Assembly: GCA_024280035.1 (NCBI GenBank)
Contig: JAJRQV010000072.1
Location: forward strand, 1 to 46,193
Source: Campylobacterales bacterium
Lineage (GTDB): Bacteria; Campylobacterota; Campylobacteria; Campylobacterales; Sulfurimonadaceae
Length of the DNA: 46,193 nucleotides
Direction: 5' to 3'
Under the pieces are notes generated by a model. That model saw nothing but the letters and a program-made list of their open reading frames with translations. It had not been told where the DNA came from and searched no databases. A program made the position numbers and the translations under genes. The first letter of the stretch is position 1. Every line of letters begins with the position of its first letter. Positions 16,660 to 24,410 of this stretch are shown piece after piece.

Positions 16660-19278
16660 TTATAATAATTCTGCCATAATTTGTTCCATCTCATCTAAGG
16701 CTGTTTTATAATCAAAAGCAGCCTCTTCATGCCGCGCAGCCAACTCCATAGACTTTGCTAAAACTTCTAAATTTTCAAATCTAAAGTTTGCAGATGAACC
16801 CTTAATAGAATGTGCTTCTAAGGATATTTTCTTATACTCTTTTTGATCCACAGCTGAAGAAAGAATAGGAAATGATTTTTTCATTTTGTCCATAAAGGTT
16901 TGAAGCAAGAGTCTAATCTCATTTTCATCTAACATTAACTCCTCTTTTAGGTGGCTTAAGTCAATTTTACTTGAAGAAAAGTTCTCTGGTATTATCTCTT
17001 TTTCTACACTACTGTGTTCTTCCAGATACTTCTGTAAAATGGCTTCAAACTCTTTAATAACAAGAGGTTTTCCTAGAAATCCATCATGCCCAAAATTAAA
17101 CTCTTCAGCCTCAGTCACATCAGCACTTAGACCAATAATAGGGGTATGTTTTTTATGCTCTTTTTTCTCATACATTAAGATATCTTTTGTGGCTTCTGTT
17201 CCATCTTTAACGGGCATCTGTTTATCCATAAAAATCAGATCAAAAGAGGCTATTTTAAAAGTCTGAACAGCCTCCAATCCATCTGAAGCAATATAATAAC
17301 TCAAGCCATATCTTTCTAAAATGATTTTAATAAACTCTTGATTAGCAACATTGTCTTCAGCCACTAAAACATGCCCATTAAAACGTCTTTGTTTATACTC
17401 TTGTACATATTTTTCATCATCTTGTGGAGTCATATGCAAGGCTTCAATAAAGGCGTGATACATCTTTTCACAATAAATTGGATAAACAAGACTGGTTATA
17501 TTTTTATCATTATCATAGGTCTTTTTAGGGGAACGAAGAAGAGCTATACTAGGAACATCTAAGCCTCTAATCGTTTCTATATCTTCATCTGTACTGTCCA
17601 TAAAAAAGAGTAAATCATAATCTGTCTCATCTAAGGTCTTAATACAAAACGAATTTAGATTAAAGGCATCAAAATATTGACGAAGATAAATGATTTCATT
17701 TTTATTATGACTACAAAACAGGGCAATACGAAGTTTCTTAAAAGGCGTAGGGTCAAAAGGAAAACTTTTAATATGAACGGGTTCATCGGCTTGAAAGTTA
17801 AACTCAAAGATACTTCCTTTTTCAACACCTTTTGTATAAGTAATGCTTCCTCCCATATGTTCAGCCAAATCTTTTGAAATTGATAAACCTAAACCTGTAC
17901 CTCCTTCAGTATCTCGATCTTGTTTAAAGGCATCAAATAAAATATTTTCATCACTAACGCCTCGACCATTATCACATATACGTATATTTACTCTCTCATT
18001 TTCATAACTAATACGTACATTAATTTCTCCCCCTTCAGGAGTAAATTTGACGGCATTAGAAAAAAGGTTAGAAAACACCTGTTTAATTCGTAAAGGGTCA
18101 GCAATCAATTCATACGGCATTTTAGGATCAATAAAAGAGCTAATAAAAATACTTTTTGCATAAGCATCCTGAGAAAACAGCTCTAAAACATATGCAAACT
18201 CATCATGCGGATTAAATATTTTTTTATCAATACTAAAGGCACCACTTCGAAGTTTTGAAAAGTCTAAGATATCATTAATAATACCTAAAAGACTCTGACC
18301 ACTATCATTAATAATTTTTAGATAAGAAGCATGGCGAGCATTACTTTCTTCTTCAAGTAAGATAGAAACAAATCCTAAAATGGCATTTAAAGGGGTTCTG
18401 ATTTCATGTGACATTGATGAGAGAAATAGTTCCTTAGCCTTTGAAGCAGCCAAGGCAGCCTGACGTGTTTCAATAAGTGTTGTCACCTCATAACCAATGG
18501 CAATAAATTCTGTTTTTTCTTTAATGGGATCAATCATTGAAATCACTGTAATATCTAAATAGTATGATTTCCCCTCTTTACTTAGGTTTTGAACCTGCCC
18601 TTTAAATATCTGCTCTTTTTCTAAGGTTTCACTCATTTCTTTGTAAAAAGTTTGGGGGGTATCAGGATGTTTAATAATAAAATGTGAATTTCCAAGAAGC
18701 TCATCTTGCGTGTAACCACTAATCTTACAAAAGTTTTTATTCACATGAGTAATCGTTCCCGATATATCTGTTTTAAAAACAATAGCTGACTCATCTAAGG
18801 CTTTTTTATACTCATTAAGAAGTTGTATATTTTTCTCAATTAATAGCTCTTTTTGATAGATGGTATCAGTATAGAGTTTTAAAACACCCGCAAAGTTAGC
18901 ATCAAAAACAAAAGATATTTCATCAAAAAGTTCTTTAGAATTGATATTAACATCATAAGAAAAATCAATGACTGCACGACGAAAATGACTACAAATTGTA
19001 AAAAGTTCATTTGCCGTGAAATCTCTATTTTTCAAATAAATCAAGAGTTCATGCATTACAGGGCAGTCGCCTAATTCTTTTGTTTTTCTAATAACATCCA
19101 TAAAATAATCAAACACGCCCGAGGCATAATATTCACAAAAATATCGACTGTCCACATCATGCAGAGCTAAGATAGCCTTAGGTTCATCATACTGCACCCA
19201 CTGCTTTAATATTTTTATCTTATTTTTTTCAAAAATTTTGACATTATTTTGGACTTCAACAAGTAAAGAGTTTTTCAT
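16660..19278 (-). CDS. Hybrid sensor histidine kinase with PAS, REC and Hpt domains
   Basis: An 872-residue protein without clear membrane helices, probably cytosolic. Order: an all-helical N-terminal region of unknown type (about 1-145), a PAS domain (GTITHVNKNFCKISGYTQDE), HisKA with H-box SHEIRTPLNAILGF, HATPase with N-box SNLFSNAVKFT and glycine box GGTGLGLSIS, a divergent receiver-like region, a true receiver (VAEDNVANQEF; phospho-Asp in LIFMDKQMPVKDG) and a C-terminal Hpt domain with LEAHSIKGSSANF. This is a full phosphorelay in one chain, so it likely needs a separate response regulator; the convergent OmpR-type regulator is the nearest candidate. Confidence 0.93.
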   Translation of the reverse strand: MKNSLLVEVQNNVKIFEKNKIKILKQWVQYDEPKAILALHDVDSRYFCEYYASGVFDYFMDVIRKTKELGDCPVMHELLIYLKNRDFTANELFTICSHFRRAVIDFSYDVNINSKELFDEISFVFDANFAGVLKLYTDTIYQKELLIEKNIQLLNEYKKALDESAIVFKTDISGTITHVNKNFCKISGYTQDELLGNSHFIIKHPDTPQTFYKEMSETLEKEQIFKGQVQNLSKEGKSYYLDITVISMIDPIKEKTEFIAIGYEVTTLIETRQAALAASKAKELFLSSMSHEIRTPLNAILGFVSILLEEESNARHASYLKIINDSGQSLLGIINDILDFSKLRSGAFSIDKKIFNPHDEFAYVLELFSQDAYAKSIFISSFIDPKMPYELIADPLRIKQVFSNLFSNAVKFTPEGGEINVRISYENERVNIRICDNGRGVSDENILFDAFKQDRDTEGGTGLGLSISKDLAEHMGGSITYTKGVEKGSIFEFNFQADEPVHIKSFPFDPTPFKKLRIALFCSHNKNEIIYLRQYFDAFNLNSFCIKTLDETDYDLLFFMDSTDEDIETIRGLDVPSIALLRSPKKTYDNDKNITSLVYPIYCEKMYHAFIEALHMTPQDDEKYVQEYKQRRFNGHVLVAEDNVANQEFIKIILERYGLSYYIASDGLEAVQTFKIASFDLIFMDKQMPVKDGTEATKDILMYEKKEHKKHTPIIGLSADVTEAEEFNFGHDGFLGKPLVIKEFEAILQKYLEEHSSVEKEIIPENFSSSKIDLSHLKEELMLDENEIRLLLQTFMDKMKKSFPILSSAVDQKEYKKISLEAHSIKGSSANFRFENLEVLAKSMELAARHEEAAFDYKTALDEMEQIMAELL

Positions 19279-19361
19279 AAGGCTTACTATAACAAAATTT
19301 TTCTTTTAAGTGTATCTTAGCTACAATAAAAAACTTTGACTGTGGGGGTGTGGTACATTAT

Positions 19362-21287
19362 ATGATTAAGTACTTTTTATCTTTTCTTTTTATCTGTGCC
19401 TCTCTTATAGCACATGATGAGCTCTCCTATAATTTATCATATTTAAGTGATAACACTAAAAAGCTTACTATAGACACTGTTCAAAATAAGAAATTTATTT
19501 CTAGTAATAGTAAAATGTTAAACCTAGGAATCACCAATAGTCCTCACTGGTTTAAACTTAAGTTTACCCTCTCTAATAAAGAACCCGTACACAGCTGGTG
19601 GCTGAAGATTGCCTATCCGCCTCTTGATTATATAGATGTGTATCTTTATGATGAAAACAACACCCAAATCTCTTCAGCATATACAGGTGAGTTACGTCCT
19701 TTTAAAGATAGAAGTGTAGCTGACCCTGCTTTTATTGAAGAGTTACAGCTTAGGCATGAAGGTAACTACACCCTGTATCTTAGAATTCAGACCGAAGGTG
19801 CCCTGCAAGTTCCTATAAAAATTATTAATTCAAATAAATTAATTAAAGAGCAATACCGCCCTATTCTTCTCTCTGGGCTTTATTATGGTCTGTTTATTAT
19901 TATCTTACTTTACAATATCATTTTATATTTCTACACAAGAGATAAGAACTATCTTTTATATATTGCCTTTGTTACTGTATTTGTTTTTTACCAACTCTCT
20001 TTAGATGGTATTGGAATAGCCTTTATCTGGGGAGATTATCCATGGATTATCCATAATGCTTCTCCCTTGGGTGCCTCAGGGTTTGCTATTCTTGCCATTG
20101 TATTTGCACGTAGTTTTTTACATACGTATAAATACAAGACCTTAGATAAGGTCTTAAAAATTCTTTTGTACTTAACCTATGGTATTTTAATCGCAGTTTT
20201 TATTTTTCCTTATCATTATGTTATTCAATCCATTGGAGCCTTTGCTATTATTGTTCCTTTTGTTCTTATCTTTTCTGGTTTTACTGCCTTAAAAGATGGT
20301 TATAGACCTGCACGTTTTTATGTTTTAGGTTGGGTTATGTTTCTTTTAGGCTGTATTTTCTTTTCACTTAATAAGTTTGCTATTATTGGCGGTTTTGAGC
20401 TTATGAGTAGAGCCATGCAAATTGGTTCTGCTATTGAGATGATTCTCTTATCTTGGGCATTAGGCGATAGAATTAAATCCATTAGAGATGAGTATTTAAT
20501 TAAATCAAATGAACTCAATAAGACCTTACAGCAACAAGTTAAGGTAAGTTTACTAAAAGAGCGTCAAAAAGATAAGATGATTATTCAACAATCTCGTCTT
20601 GCTGCCTTAGGAGAGATGATTGAACAAATTGCGCATCAATGGAGACAACCCCTTAATACACTAGCGCTAATTAACCAAAACCTCTATTTTAAATATAAAC
20701 TGGAATCTTTTAATGAAGAAGAGTTTGACAAGGCGCATGACCAGATCAATGAAAACTTGCAATATATGTCTCAAACCATTGATGATTTCAGAGGTTTTTA
20801 CAAAAAAGATCCTCAAAAAGAGAGTTATAATATTGAAGATGTCATCCACTCTTCGGTCTCAATCTCAGAATCCATGATAAAGTATGCAAAAATAAATATT
20901 TCAATCAATAGTAAGGCAGACTGTGTTGTTACTAATATTAGAAATGAACTGATGCAAGTAATTATGAACCTTATTAAAAATGCACATGATGCATTAATTG
21001 AAAACAAAATAGAAAATAGACAGATTAGTTTTGATATTTTTCAAAAAGAGAATAAGGTGTATCTCTGTATTGAAGATAATGCAGGGGGAATTTCTGAGAA
21101 AATCATAGAGAAGATTTTTAACCCATATTTCACAACAAAATCAAAAGAGACAGGAACAGGCTTAGGTCTGTATATGTCAAAGTCAATTATTCAAGAACAT
21201 ATGAAGGGTACGATTGAGGCAGAAAACACTAAAGAAGGTGCACGTTTCACCATTATCTTACCTCAGGCTAAACCAACCGTTACTTAA
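19362..21287 (+). CDS. 7TMR-DISM sensor histidine kinase
   Basis: A 641-residue kinase. A signal peptide (MIKYFLSFLFICASLIAH) leads into a periplasmic 7TMR-DISM extracellular domain (NSPHWFKLKFTL, then WWLKIAYPPLDYIDVYLYDE), seven membrane helices (about residues 170-370), and a kinase module with H-box LGEMIEQIAHQWRQPLNTL, N-box MNLIKNAHDA and glycine box TGTGLGLYMS. The HQWRQPL form of H-box is frequent in Campylobacterota. A GTG at 19350 is an alternative start, but ATG at 19362 gives the proper signal peptide. The 83-bp divergent gap to the hybrid kinase may carry both promoters. No dedicated response regulator is adjacent on this strand. Confidence 0.9.
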   Translation: MIKYFLSFLFICASLIAHDELSYNLSYLSDNTKKLTIDTVQNKKFISSNSKMLNLGITNSPHWFKLKFTLSNKEPVHSWWLKIAYPPLDYIDVYLYDENNTQISSAYTGELRPFKDRSVADPAFIEELQLRHEGNYTLYLRIQTEGALQVPIKIINSNKLIKEQYRPILLSGLYYGLFIIILLYNIILYFYTRDKNYLLYIAFVTVFVFYQLSLDGIGIAFIWGDYPWIIHNASPLGASGFAILAIVFARSFLHTYKYKTLDKVLKILLYLTYGILIAVFIFPYHYVIQSIGAFAIIVPFVLIFSGFTALKDGYRPARFYVLGWVMFLLGCIFFSLNKFAIIGGFELMSRAMQIGSAIEMILLSWALGDRIKSIRDEYLIKSNELNKTLQQQVKVSLLKERQKDKMIIQQSRLAALGEMIEQIAHQWRQPLNTLALINQNLYFKYKLESFNEEEFDKAHDQINENLQYMSQTIDDFRGFYKKDPQKESYNIEDVIHSSVSISESMIKYAKINISINSKADCVVTNIRNELMQVIMNLIKNAHDALIENKIENRQISFDIFQKENKVYLCIEDNAGGISEKIIEKIFNPYFTTKSKETGTGLGLYMSKSIIQEHMKGTIEAENTKEGARFTIILPQAKPTVT

Positions 21288-22096
21288 ATAATAAAATAAG
21301 AAAGAGCCGTTAATATACAGAGGTACAATAATGAGACAAGAGCTGTTCCGATAATATTTCCAATTTGGCAACTACTACATGATGAATAGGTTTTATCCTC
21401 ATATTGAGCATAAAAGAAATAAATTATTATGAAAGAAAGTGTCGCATACGCAAGATACGTCTGATAAACCCATAACGAAGAGAGCGTCTCTTTGTCAGAA
21501 ACAAATAGTGAAGCCATCAGTAAAACTAGCATAAAGACCATGATGATATTTGGTACTTTAAGAATTTTATCTCTAAAAAATGTAGTAGGACAACTCTCAT
21601 CTACCTTACCTGCATTTGAACCACTATCAAGTTTATTCTCAAACAGCTCTTTCTCTTTTTTTGTAAGTTTAGATAAAAAGGTAGAACCAAAGGTATAATC
21701 AATTTTTCGTTGAAGTAAGATACTAAGTTCACCCTCTGCCTTTAAAGACTGCTGAGTACCCTCTCTGTCTTGGTAAATAAGACTTATCTTCTCATACCGA
21801 GGAACTGCAGCTGTAAAGCCCGCAAAATAAGCTGTACTTTCCGTCACAATCTGTTTTCCACTATTACTCAAAATTCTTGGATTAATTAATTCTAGAAACT
21901 CTCCATCTTCTTTTTTAACCACAATAACATTAAAATAATTTTTTATCTGATAAGCAGCAAGACCTTCCATCTCATTTTCAATAATAGTATCTTTTAAATC
22001 TTGTATTAATGTGTGAATCTCTTCATTAAATATTCTTACATCTGTCCCGAATTCTACTCCTGGAGAGCTTGGATATCTTGTAATATCTCTAACCAT
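21284..22096 (-). CDS. Degenerate peptide deformylase-like domain fused to a three-helix membrane domain
   Basis: A 270-residue protein. Residues 1-150 align end to end with peptide deformylase: MVRDITRYP start, motif 1 EGLAAYQ (44-50), LELINPRILSNSG, AVPRYEKISLIYQDREG and the final LSKLTKKEKELF. The catalytic residues are gone: the motif 2 Cys (EGCLS) is Thr88 within TESTAY, and motif 3 HExDH is replaced by RKIDY (130-134). The C-terminal part adds about three membrane helices (182-200, 208-230, 245-268) and a C-S-S-C pair (240-243). It cannot deformylate by the known mechanism. A binding or sensing role at the membrane is a guess. Its stop overlaps the end of the convergent 7TMR-DISM kinase by 4 bp. 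Confidence 0.8.
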   Translation of the reverse strand: MVRDITRYPSSPGVEFGTDVRIFNEEIHTLIQDLKDTIIENEMEGLAAYQIKNYFNVIVVKKEDGEFLELINPRILSNSGKQIVTESTAYFAGFTAAVPRYEKISLIYQDREGTQQSLKAEGELSILLQRKIDYTFGSTFLSKLTKKEKELFENKLDSGSNAGKVDESCPTTFFRDKILKVPNIIMVFMLVLLMASLFVSDKETLSSLWVYQTYLAYATLSFIIIYFFYAQYEDKTYSSCSSCQIGNIIGTALVSLLYLCILTALSYFII

Positions 22097-22225: not shown

Positions 22226-22260
22226 TGTCTACCCCCAGAAGAGATCTTCTAGGATAGACA
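22226..22260 (-). terminator. Hairpin downstream of the sqr operon
   Basis: TGTCTA (22226-22231) pairs with TAGACA (22255-22260), and AGAAG (22237-22241) with CTTCT (22246-22250), with C/G pairs between, giving a strong interrupted stem. It begins 7 bp after the stop of the 54-aa gene that follows sqr. There is no clear U tract in the minus-strand direction, so it may be a weak terminator or a 3' stability element. Confidence 0.4.
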
Positions 22261-22456: not shown

Positions 22457-23926
22457 CTATTCTGGAATTAACGTCCAACCTGGTTTAAGCTGAGCTTTCC
22501 AAAGGAATAGGTGGTGAAGGATATGTTTAATCCAGTGACCAGCAAGACCAATTTCACCAAAGGTATAGTCTGTATCACGACCTGTACCTGGGTATTTTTC
22601 GAAGTCAGGAACAACAGGATAAACTGTCATAGCTGCTGCAGTTCCAGTGAAAACACCTTTACCTGCTGATGCAACACAGGCTGCACCCATATCTGCCATA
22701 GATGCTTCATGTAAGTGAGCATCTTCACCCTTAGTCATAAGGTCACATACTGAGTGTGCAACCGCTTTACCGATAATACCTGAAGGCATACCTGTACGTG
22801 GAGGAGTTGGATTAATTGGAGTTCCATTTGGAGAACTCATTGGTTTAGAGATAAGGTGTGGAGGTGCAAATGCAATACCAGCAGCAAACATATTTTTGTA
22901 TGTAGGATTTTGGTAAGTTTTAGGCCAATCTGATGCTTTCCAGTTTTCATAAGCACCCGCACCGTAGTTAGCATCCACTTTCATGAAACCATTTGGAGCA
23001 AAAACAGTTGAAGTAATATCTTCACCTGCTTTATCAAATGCTTTAATACCTACACCCGCAAATGGTGGAATAAGCATTGCAAAGTCAAAAGTTTCTTGAC
23101 CTGTAGTACCATCAAGAAGTTCATAATCAATTGAACCTGATTCTACTTTAGAAACGTGTGCACCAATCATCCAGTCAACATTTCTTTCAGCAAAAAGAGA
23201 CTCAGCAAATAGTTTAGAACTTACTGCATATCCGCCAACTTTCATATGAAGCCCACCCATACCAAAATCACCTAAGAATGATTCGTTAGAAATCCATTTT
23301 ATATCAGCCATATCACGAACACCCGCTTTGTTCAGTTCATGTTCAATGTTAAAGATGTACTCAAAAGCAGCACCTTGACATGTACACATACCGTGACCTG
23401 TACCGATTAAGAATTTCTGACGTTCGCCAGCTTTCATTTTTTCGATAGCTTTTGTTAACTCTTCACTTGCGTGAACAGCATGATCAGCTGTACATACAGA
23501 AACGGTATGCTCACCAAGACCATTAGCATCACCAAGACCTGGAGTTGCAGCAAAGTTAAGTTTAGGACCTGTTGCATTAACAATGTAATCATATGTTAAA
23601 TCTTCAGTTTCACCTGCTTTACCTTGACCTGTATACTCAATAGTAACAAAAGGAGTATCTGAATCAGCATTTCCTTCTGGGTTTAAAGATTTAGCTAAAG
23701 CTTGTTTATAAGTAATTCCTGCTTTTTTGTATACAGGGTCAAGGTCAAAAGTAACCTCTTCTTTACTCATTTGTCCAACACCAACCCAAATGTTTGATGG
23801 AATCCAGTTCCATTTTGCGTTTGGTGTTACAACGACTACTTCATGATTAGAACCTAACCATTTTGCAGCAAACGTAGCTGTCGTGTGTCCAGCCACACCA
23901 CCGCCAAGTACTATTAATCTTGCCAT
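22457..23926 (-). CDS. sqr: Sulfide:quinone oxidoreductase family flavoprotein
   Basis: A 489-residue FAD-dependent enzyme of the SQR/flavocytochrome c sulfide dehydrogenase group. The N-terminus IVLGGGVAGHTTATF is the FAD dinucleotide fold; IVNATGPKLNF is the second FAD motif; GHGMCTCQGAAFEY carries the redox-active Cys region, and further Cys residues occur in VSVCTADHAVH and MGAACVASAG. The C-terminal HHLFLWKAQLKPGWTLIPE is amphipathic and suits monotopic membrane binding at the quinone site. It oxidises sulfide and passes electrons to quinone. Which SQR type (I-VI) is not decided here. AAAAGGAGTAGAT precedes the ATG, a very strong ribosome-binding site, fitting high expression. A 54-aa gene follows. 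Confidence 0.88.
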   Translation of the reverse strand: MARLIVLGGGVAGHTTATFAAKWLGSNHEVVVVTPNAKWNWIPSNIWVGVGQMSKEEVTFDLDPVYKKAGITYKQALAKSLNPEGNADSDTPFVTIEYTGQGKAGETEDLTYDYIVNATGPKLNFAATPGLGDANGLGEHTVSVCTADHAVHASEELTKAIEKMKAGERQKFLIGTGHGMCTCQGAAFEYIFNIEHELNKAGVRDMADIKWISNESFLGDFGMGGLHMKVGGYAVSSKLFAESLFAERNVDWMIGAHVSKVESGSIDYELLDGTTGQETFDFAMLIPPFAGVGIKAFDKAGEDITSTVFAPNGFMKVDANYGAGAYENWKASDWPKTYQNPTYKNMFAAGIAFAPPHLISKPMSSPNGTPINPTPPRTGMPSGIIGKAVAHSVCDLMTKGEDAHLHEASMADMGAACVASAGKGVFTGTAAAMTVYPVVPDFEKYPGTGRDTDYTFGEIGLAGHWIKHILHHLFLWKAQLKPGWTLIPE

Positions 23927-24119: not shown

Positions 24120-24410
24120 CTACTTAATATAGTCCACTACTTTAGCCCCTTCAGTGACCTCTTTTATCACATTTACGACTTCTAAATGCGCAGGATCTGT
24201 TGCGTATGTTGAAAGTGCTTTTTTATCGTTAAAAGTTGTTGTTAGTACTAAATCAAAAGAACGTTCACTCTTCATAAAGTCTAAACCCACTTCCATGCTT
24301 AAGAGACCTTCAATTTTAGAAGGAAGCCCTTCAAGTAACTCTTTCACCTTGTAAAGATTGTTTTTTCTGTTTTCTTCTTTAAATTTCAACATTACTATAT
24401 GTATAATCAT
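24120..24410 (-). CDS. Dabb (stress-responsive alpha-beta barrel) protein
   Basis: A 96-residue Dabb-domain protein: MIIHIVMLKFKEE at the start, GLDFMKSERSFDLVLTTTF in the middle and YATDPAHLEVVNVIK near the end, the usual H-x-V-x-F and Y-x-x-x-P-x-H pattern. These form dimeric alpha-beta barrels; most members have no known substrate. It sits alone between sqr and the efflux operon, transcribed away from the latter. Confidence 0.88.
   Translation of the reverse strand: MIIHIVMLKFKEENRKNNLYKVKELLEGLPSKIEGLLSMEVGLDFMKSERSFDLVLTTTFNDKKALSTYATDPAHLEVVNVIKEVTEGAKVVDYIK

Follow-up and report, generated by a model that had tools for sequence, protein, structure and literature searches.

The locus analysed here raises the question of what a protein does that has kept the fold of peptide deformylase (PDF), has lost all catalytic residues of that enzyme and has a membrane domain fused to it. 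Its gene lies in a window of 46,193 nucleotides, by which we mean the whole stretch of DNA that was analysed, from a member of the Sulfurimonadaceae. We refer to the gene as pdfL, a label coined here.

21284..22096, minus strand: pdfL, 270 amino acids, membrane-anchored peptide-deformylase pseudoenzyme

The PDF fold occupies residues 1-157 of PdfL. It is followed by a linker that contains C169 and by membrane helices at approximately residues 174-196, 202-236 and 238-269, the third of which starts with the motif C240-x-x-C243. A signal peptide ahead of the PDF domain was not found. The Pfam family PF01327 (Pep_deformylase) matches residues 5-149 with an E value of 2.4e-26 and 92.6 bits against a cut-off of 22.8, while the NCBIfam model TIGR00079 reaches 71 bits, which is under its equivalog cut-off of 104. 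When a model of PdfL, calculated with AlphaFold2 on a 30-row family alignment (mean pLDDT 89.3), was compared with the PDB using Foldseek, the top matches were all PDFs, with an E value of 4e-15 for 2ew5 and TM-scores, by target, of 0.84-0.87. The helices H174-196, H202-236 and H238-269 in this model are consistent with three membrane helices, in agreement with the earlier note on this DNA, which had counted about three from the sequence. By hydropathy, only helices 1 and 3 are clear, and helix 2 stays below the Kyte-Doolittle threshold of 1.6. Around residues 160-170 the pLDDT drops to about 51, and the placement of C169 relative to C240 and C243 is not fixed by the model.

The residues on which deformylase chemistry depends are gone. 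In the window protein EGCLS has become ESTAY, with Thr88 in place of the metal-binding Cys, and QHExDH has become QRKIDY (RKIDY at positions 130-134). The homology to deformylase and both of these replacements had been proposed before and are borne out by the Pfam match, the structure match and the sequence. The accompanying statement that motif I is kept needs qualification: PdfL does have GLAAYQ, yet Met43 stands where GxGxAAxQ has its first Gly, and the second Gly is likewise missing from most homologues. Among the hallmarks of an active PDF, the fold is thus retained, the Cys of EGCLS and the HExxH motif are not, and PdfL is predicted to be devoid of deformylase activity.

This state is common to the entire family. 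We aligned 121 distinct homologues, which come from Sulfurimonadaceae and other, related Campylobacterota and without exception share the architecture of a PDF-like domain plus membrane helices. In this alignment the position of the metal-binding Cys is occupied by T (105 copies), S (13), D (2) or N (1) and never by C. The position of the catalytic Glu (131) is taken by K, Q, H, M or Y and never by E, and that of the last His (134) by Y, F, M or L and never by H. RK stands in place of HE in 103 of the 121 copies, and positions 130-131 vary between RK, HQ, HH and QQ. N72, E86, R100, Q129 and D133 are invariant, and Q50 is nearly so (118/121). The two parts of the protein have median dN/dS values of 0.076 (PDF domain) and 0.11 (membrane domain). 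Apart from weak matches that contain stops and from fragments, at least one of which lies at the edge of a contig, the membrane domain occurs neither alone nor fused to other domains in 100 relatives. Intact soluble homologues of this copy are not found, because every family member is dead and membrane-fused. A canonical def gene with intact EGCLS and HEIDH resides elsewhere in the window genome (C17), as the earlier note had recommended checking, and this rules out pdfL as the sole def of the genome. We thus state with confidence that pdfL represents a conserved family under purifying selection and not a decaying copy; the earlier picture of a conserved fold with erased chemistry and an added membrane domain was correct, and the substitutions are shared by every homologue.

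The gene immediately upstream of pdfL encodes a sulfide:quinone oxidoreductase (SQR), and the gap between the two genes holds a small open reading frame and a stem-loop.

22457..23926, minus strand: SQR, 489 amino acids
22267..22431, minus strand: small protein of 54 amino acids, directly downstream of SQR
22226..22260, minus strand: stem-loop between the small ORF and pdfL

The identification as SQR is based on sequence: the best PDB match is 3hyv (Aquifex SQR, E value 3e-38), and the three redox or active-site cysteines of the solved SQRs from Aquifex (3hyv) and Acidithiobacillus (3sz0) align in this homologue in a phmmer alignment judged by eye. Its NCBIfam match is sub-threshold and does not provide a subtype. 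Further upstream of SQR, the window contains a gene for a Dabb-domain (stress-responsive A/B barrel) protein (24120-24410, minus strand).

Of 141 loci, 96 have SQR immediately upstream of pdfL and in the same orientation, with a gap of 183-575 bp. Among the 100 relatives, 56 have both pdfL and SQR, 16 have SQR alone and 28 have neither; in 55 of the 56 genomes SQR was detected by search, and in the remaining one (G031) it is present as a fragment beside pdfL (locus L060). The corresponding Fisher p value of 8e-14, for which genomes were taken as independent, is descriptive only, because the genomes are related and order-wide kinship inflates it. A further 27 genomes with pdfL, from families f1, f6, f9 and f18, all carry SQR (27/27), adjacent to pdfL by coordinates in 26 cases and at contig ends in one. 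This SQR therefore accompanies pdfL in 83 of 83 genomes (56 + 27). Five relatives from the window's own genus lack pdfL and lack this SQR as well.

Linkage of pdfL with SQR was observed in families f1, f4, f6, f7, f18 and f22. The remaining flanking genes are not the same in these families: the gene for aminopeptidase N (pepN) and a hybrid kinase in f1, and different genes in the other five. As the other neighbours change among families, SQR, the small ORF and pdfL are the sole shared members. Both pepN and the histidine kinase are missing from the linked loci of other families and were ruled out as core partners. Outside the 100 relatives, pdfL is also present in other families of the phylum, while f11 and f14, with many genomes, have canonical def only. 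A scan of named genomes for pdfL returned almost only records of Sulfurimonas, Sulfurimonadaceae and Campylobacterales. The trees of SQR and pdfL are compatible with a single early gain of pdfL beside SQR, after which the gene was lost in some cases (e.g., in G032) and, in some genera, relocated away from SQR. In family f16 (L182, L187), a thioredoxin-like gene (WCGPC in translation) takes the place of pdfL behind SQR and the small ORF, which fits a thiol-linked step following SQR.

The window genome contains a second dead, membrane-fused paralogue (G000:C88:54449-55249; L002 1492-2298, L052) that is 49% identical to the window protein. It is situated 12 bp behind a gene of the DsrE family, and an AhpD-like gene precedes it by about 0.7 kb. 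This DsrE/AhpD-like context is repeated in the paralogue clade in Sulfurimonadaceae, and some paralogues reside beside none of SQR, AhpD and DsrE. The clade is widespread in Sulfurimonas.

Every one of the 96 SQR-pdfL gaps contains the small ORF, which shows a dN/dS of about 0.12 and has a ribosome-binding-like AAGGA. Its 54-aa product follows the consensus TMxPGxFAxxxRTCxIWQFIRFxxINxKMxxVVxKSH, in which P21, R29, Q35, R38, F39, N43, K45, M46, V49, V50 and the KSH motif are invariant, has no match in Pfam or NCBIfam and is predicted to form a single long helix. With this length it falls under a 60-aa ORF cut-off. Where pdfL is missing from a genome, the ORF still lies behind nearly all SQR genes of this type, at SQR identities as low as 51%. 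Across Campylobacterota, comparison of these loci identifies the 54-aa protein as a companion of SQR in its own right, with or without pdfL, and it is probably an SQR subunit or anchor. The stem-loop that follows (TGTCTA...AGAAGA / TCTTCT...TAGACA) has a raw minimum free energy of -19.2 kcal/mol here and a median of -15.6 over 90 loci, both values being without a shuffled control, and comparable hairpins are present 3' of the small ORF in sampled loci. A possible consequence is partial termination or mRNA processing, and the element perhaps sets the expression ratio.

Three cysteines are conserved in the family. C240 and C243 are invariant (121/121 copies), while C169, just ahead of helix 1, is present in 87 of 87 SQR-linked copies and is missing solely in some unlinked ones; the 121-copy alignment contains no further conserved Cys. 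The earlier note had recognised the C240-x-x-C243 pair, which is real, but had missed the conserved third cysteine. The topology of PdfL was inferred from charge bias. On average, the segment ahead of helix 1 contains 3.0 K+R, the helix 1-2 connection 0.5 and the helix 2-3 connection 1.9. As positive charge is found ahead of the first helix and between the second and third, and not between the first and second, the PDF domain, the turn between helices 2 and 3 and C169, C240 and C243 are predicted to be on the cytoplasmic side, which would place the conserved cysteines at the cytoplasmic membrane face.

Since pdfL occurs only together with one kind of SQR and is usually adjacent to it, it is probably an overlooked accessory of hydrogen sulfide oxidation. 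We give a probability of roughly one half to the reading that PdfL, a PDF pseudoenzyme anchored in the membrane, acts as an accessory part of a Campylobacterota SQR module consisting of sqr, the gene for the 54-aa protein and pdfL. The PDF-like domain would then be a cytoplasmic docking platform for a protein or ligand, and the three helices would hold it in the membrane beside SQR. C169, C240 and C243 would engage in thiol-persulfide chemistry, most likely by accepting or relaying the sulfane sulfur or polysulfide that SQR produces, or by sensing it. More tentatively, we propose that a dead PDF has been recruited as a membrane-bound acceptor or relay of sulfane sulfur via C169 and the CxxC pair, in a hitherto undescribed three-component SQR module with the 54-aa protein as a subunit. 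An accessory of this kind is not needed for SQR activity, as is evident from the 16 relatives that have SQR without pdfL. The stem-loop and the distance of about 180-575 bp between the genes imply that expression of sqr and pdfL may be uncoupled. The SQR of some bacteria faces the periplasm, and if this were also the case here, a cytoplasmic PDF-like domain would not touch SQR directly. We also considered, and rejected, binding of H2S at a metal site, for which the PDF of E. coli with hydrosulfide (4az4, 4al2) is the model, because the metal ligands are gone in PdfL.

The main rival to an SQR accessory is a role in kinase input. PdfL would then be a sulfide or redox sensor in the membrane, with the three cysteines as the detector of persulfide and the PDF-like domain as the part that signals to a soluble hybrid PAS kinase. 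Two kinase genes are located downstream of pdfL in the window.

16660..19278, minus strand: hybrid PAS histidine kinase, split from pdfL here by an inserted gene
19350..21287, plus strand: 7TMR-DISM membrane histidine kinase, the inserted gene that separates pdfL from the PAS kinase gene

The stop codon of the 7TMR-DISM kinase gene overlaps that of pdfL by 4 bases, and the position of this gene is not conserved. The hybrid kinase, which comprises PAS, HisKA, HATPase, receiver and Hpt domains, follows pdfL at a distance of 10-104 bp in many f1 loci and is predicted to be soluble, both in line with a signalling partner, and MerR-type regulators are found near pdfL paralogues. The kinase itself is a candidate sensor of the sulfide response. 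Its N-terminal region (FDYFxGVIxGxxxIGDCPVxxxFLxYLKDRN), unassigned to a known domain, recurs beside SQR with and without pdfL. However, the linked loci of f4, f6, f7, f18 and f22 are devoid of the PAS kinase, which is therefore not the general partner of pdfL, and in several genomes with SQR only, the kinase gene directly follows the small ORF where no pdfL is present. We consider a sensor function of PdfL as input to this kinase unlikely.

Still less probable is that the PDF pocket makes PdfL a receptor of formyl-Met peptides, nascent chains or N termini, which might serve to deliver SQR to the membrane or to assemble it. The earlier note had favoured a sensor of this type, for formyl-Met peptides or proteins at the ribosome exit. 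This proposal found no support in the genomic evidence, which consists of SQR adjacency, exclusive co-occurrence with SQR and the DsrE/AhpD-like context of the paralogues and thus points to sulfide metabolism as the specific partner, not to translation. It retains some plausibility because pocket-region residues persist, with Q50, E86, R100, Q129 and D133 in 118-121 of the 121 copies. The metal ligands and the general base, on the other hand, are gone, with RK for HE in most copies. Aminopeptidase N is often encoded upstream of SQR in f1, but this neighbour is not common to other families, and the genomic context holds no other tie of pdfL to ribosomes or formyl peptides. An enzyme that has turned the PDF pocket to a new kind of catalysis without metal appears just as improbable. 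It would be in keeping with the stronger constraint on the PDF domain than on the membrane domain and with the conserved T/S88, Y90, R130, K131 and Y134 that replace the metal site in most copies. However, the variation at positions 130-131 is unusual for a catalytic pair, and the place of the metal site is without a conserved Cys, Glu or His. A def duplicate decaying without function, as the loss of all catalytic residues alone might suggest, can be dismissed in view of the same loss in 121 distinct copies from several families, with intact reading frames and dN/dS of 0.08-0.11.

Accessory PDFs are common. Compared with the classical enzyme (def; H. pylori 2ew5, E. coli 4az4), PdfL has the same fold in residues 1-157, keeps Q50, E86, R100, Q129 and D133 and shows 29% identity in the structure alignment; it differs in that the window protein lacks the Cys, His, His ligands and the catalytic Glu, carries a fused membrane domain and is encoded in addition to a canonical def. 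In Staphylococcus aureus and Streptococcus pneumoniae, accessory PDFs of type 3 are described as inactive or weakly active, with substitutions in motifs I and II (PMC12690207). Like these, PdfL is an extra PDF homologue with substituted motifs beside an active Def. Unlike these, it is also without motif III, has gained three membrane helices and a CxxC motif and is tied to SQR. A membrane-fused PDF is not described in PMC12690207, in which the word 'transmembrane' is absent. Metallopeptidase pseudoenzymes, the subject of the review PMC11266112, are dead enzyme folds reused for binding or scaffolding, and PdfL fits this general principle. In the literature searched, we found no report of the PdfL family, in accordance with the earlier impression that no such system had been described, and no relevant description of an SQR with a deformylase-like membrane partner or of a PDF linkage in Sulfurimonas; a description elsewhere is possible. 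We know of no described SQR with such a partner and, to our knowledge, there is no deformylase pseudoenzyme that combines a membrane domain with linkage to sulfur metabolism.

These findings have a bearing on annotation as well as on sulfur metabolism. A PF01327 match can mark a pseudoenzyme with a non-translational role, and this matters when accessory deformylases are counted as copies of an antibiotic target. Among the major sulfide oxidisers of redoxclines, vents and seeps are Sulfurimonas and its relatives, and we are aware of no clear account of the fate of sulfane sulfur after SQR in these organisms. If PdfL and the 54-aa protein are indeed partners of SQR, two proteins that so far escape notice, one as a second 'peptide deformylase' and the other as a small ORF that is not called, would become testable parts of this pathway.
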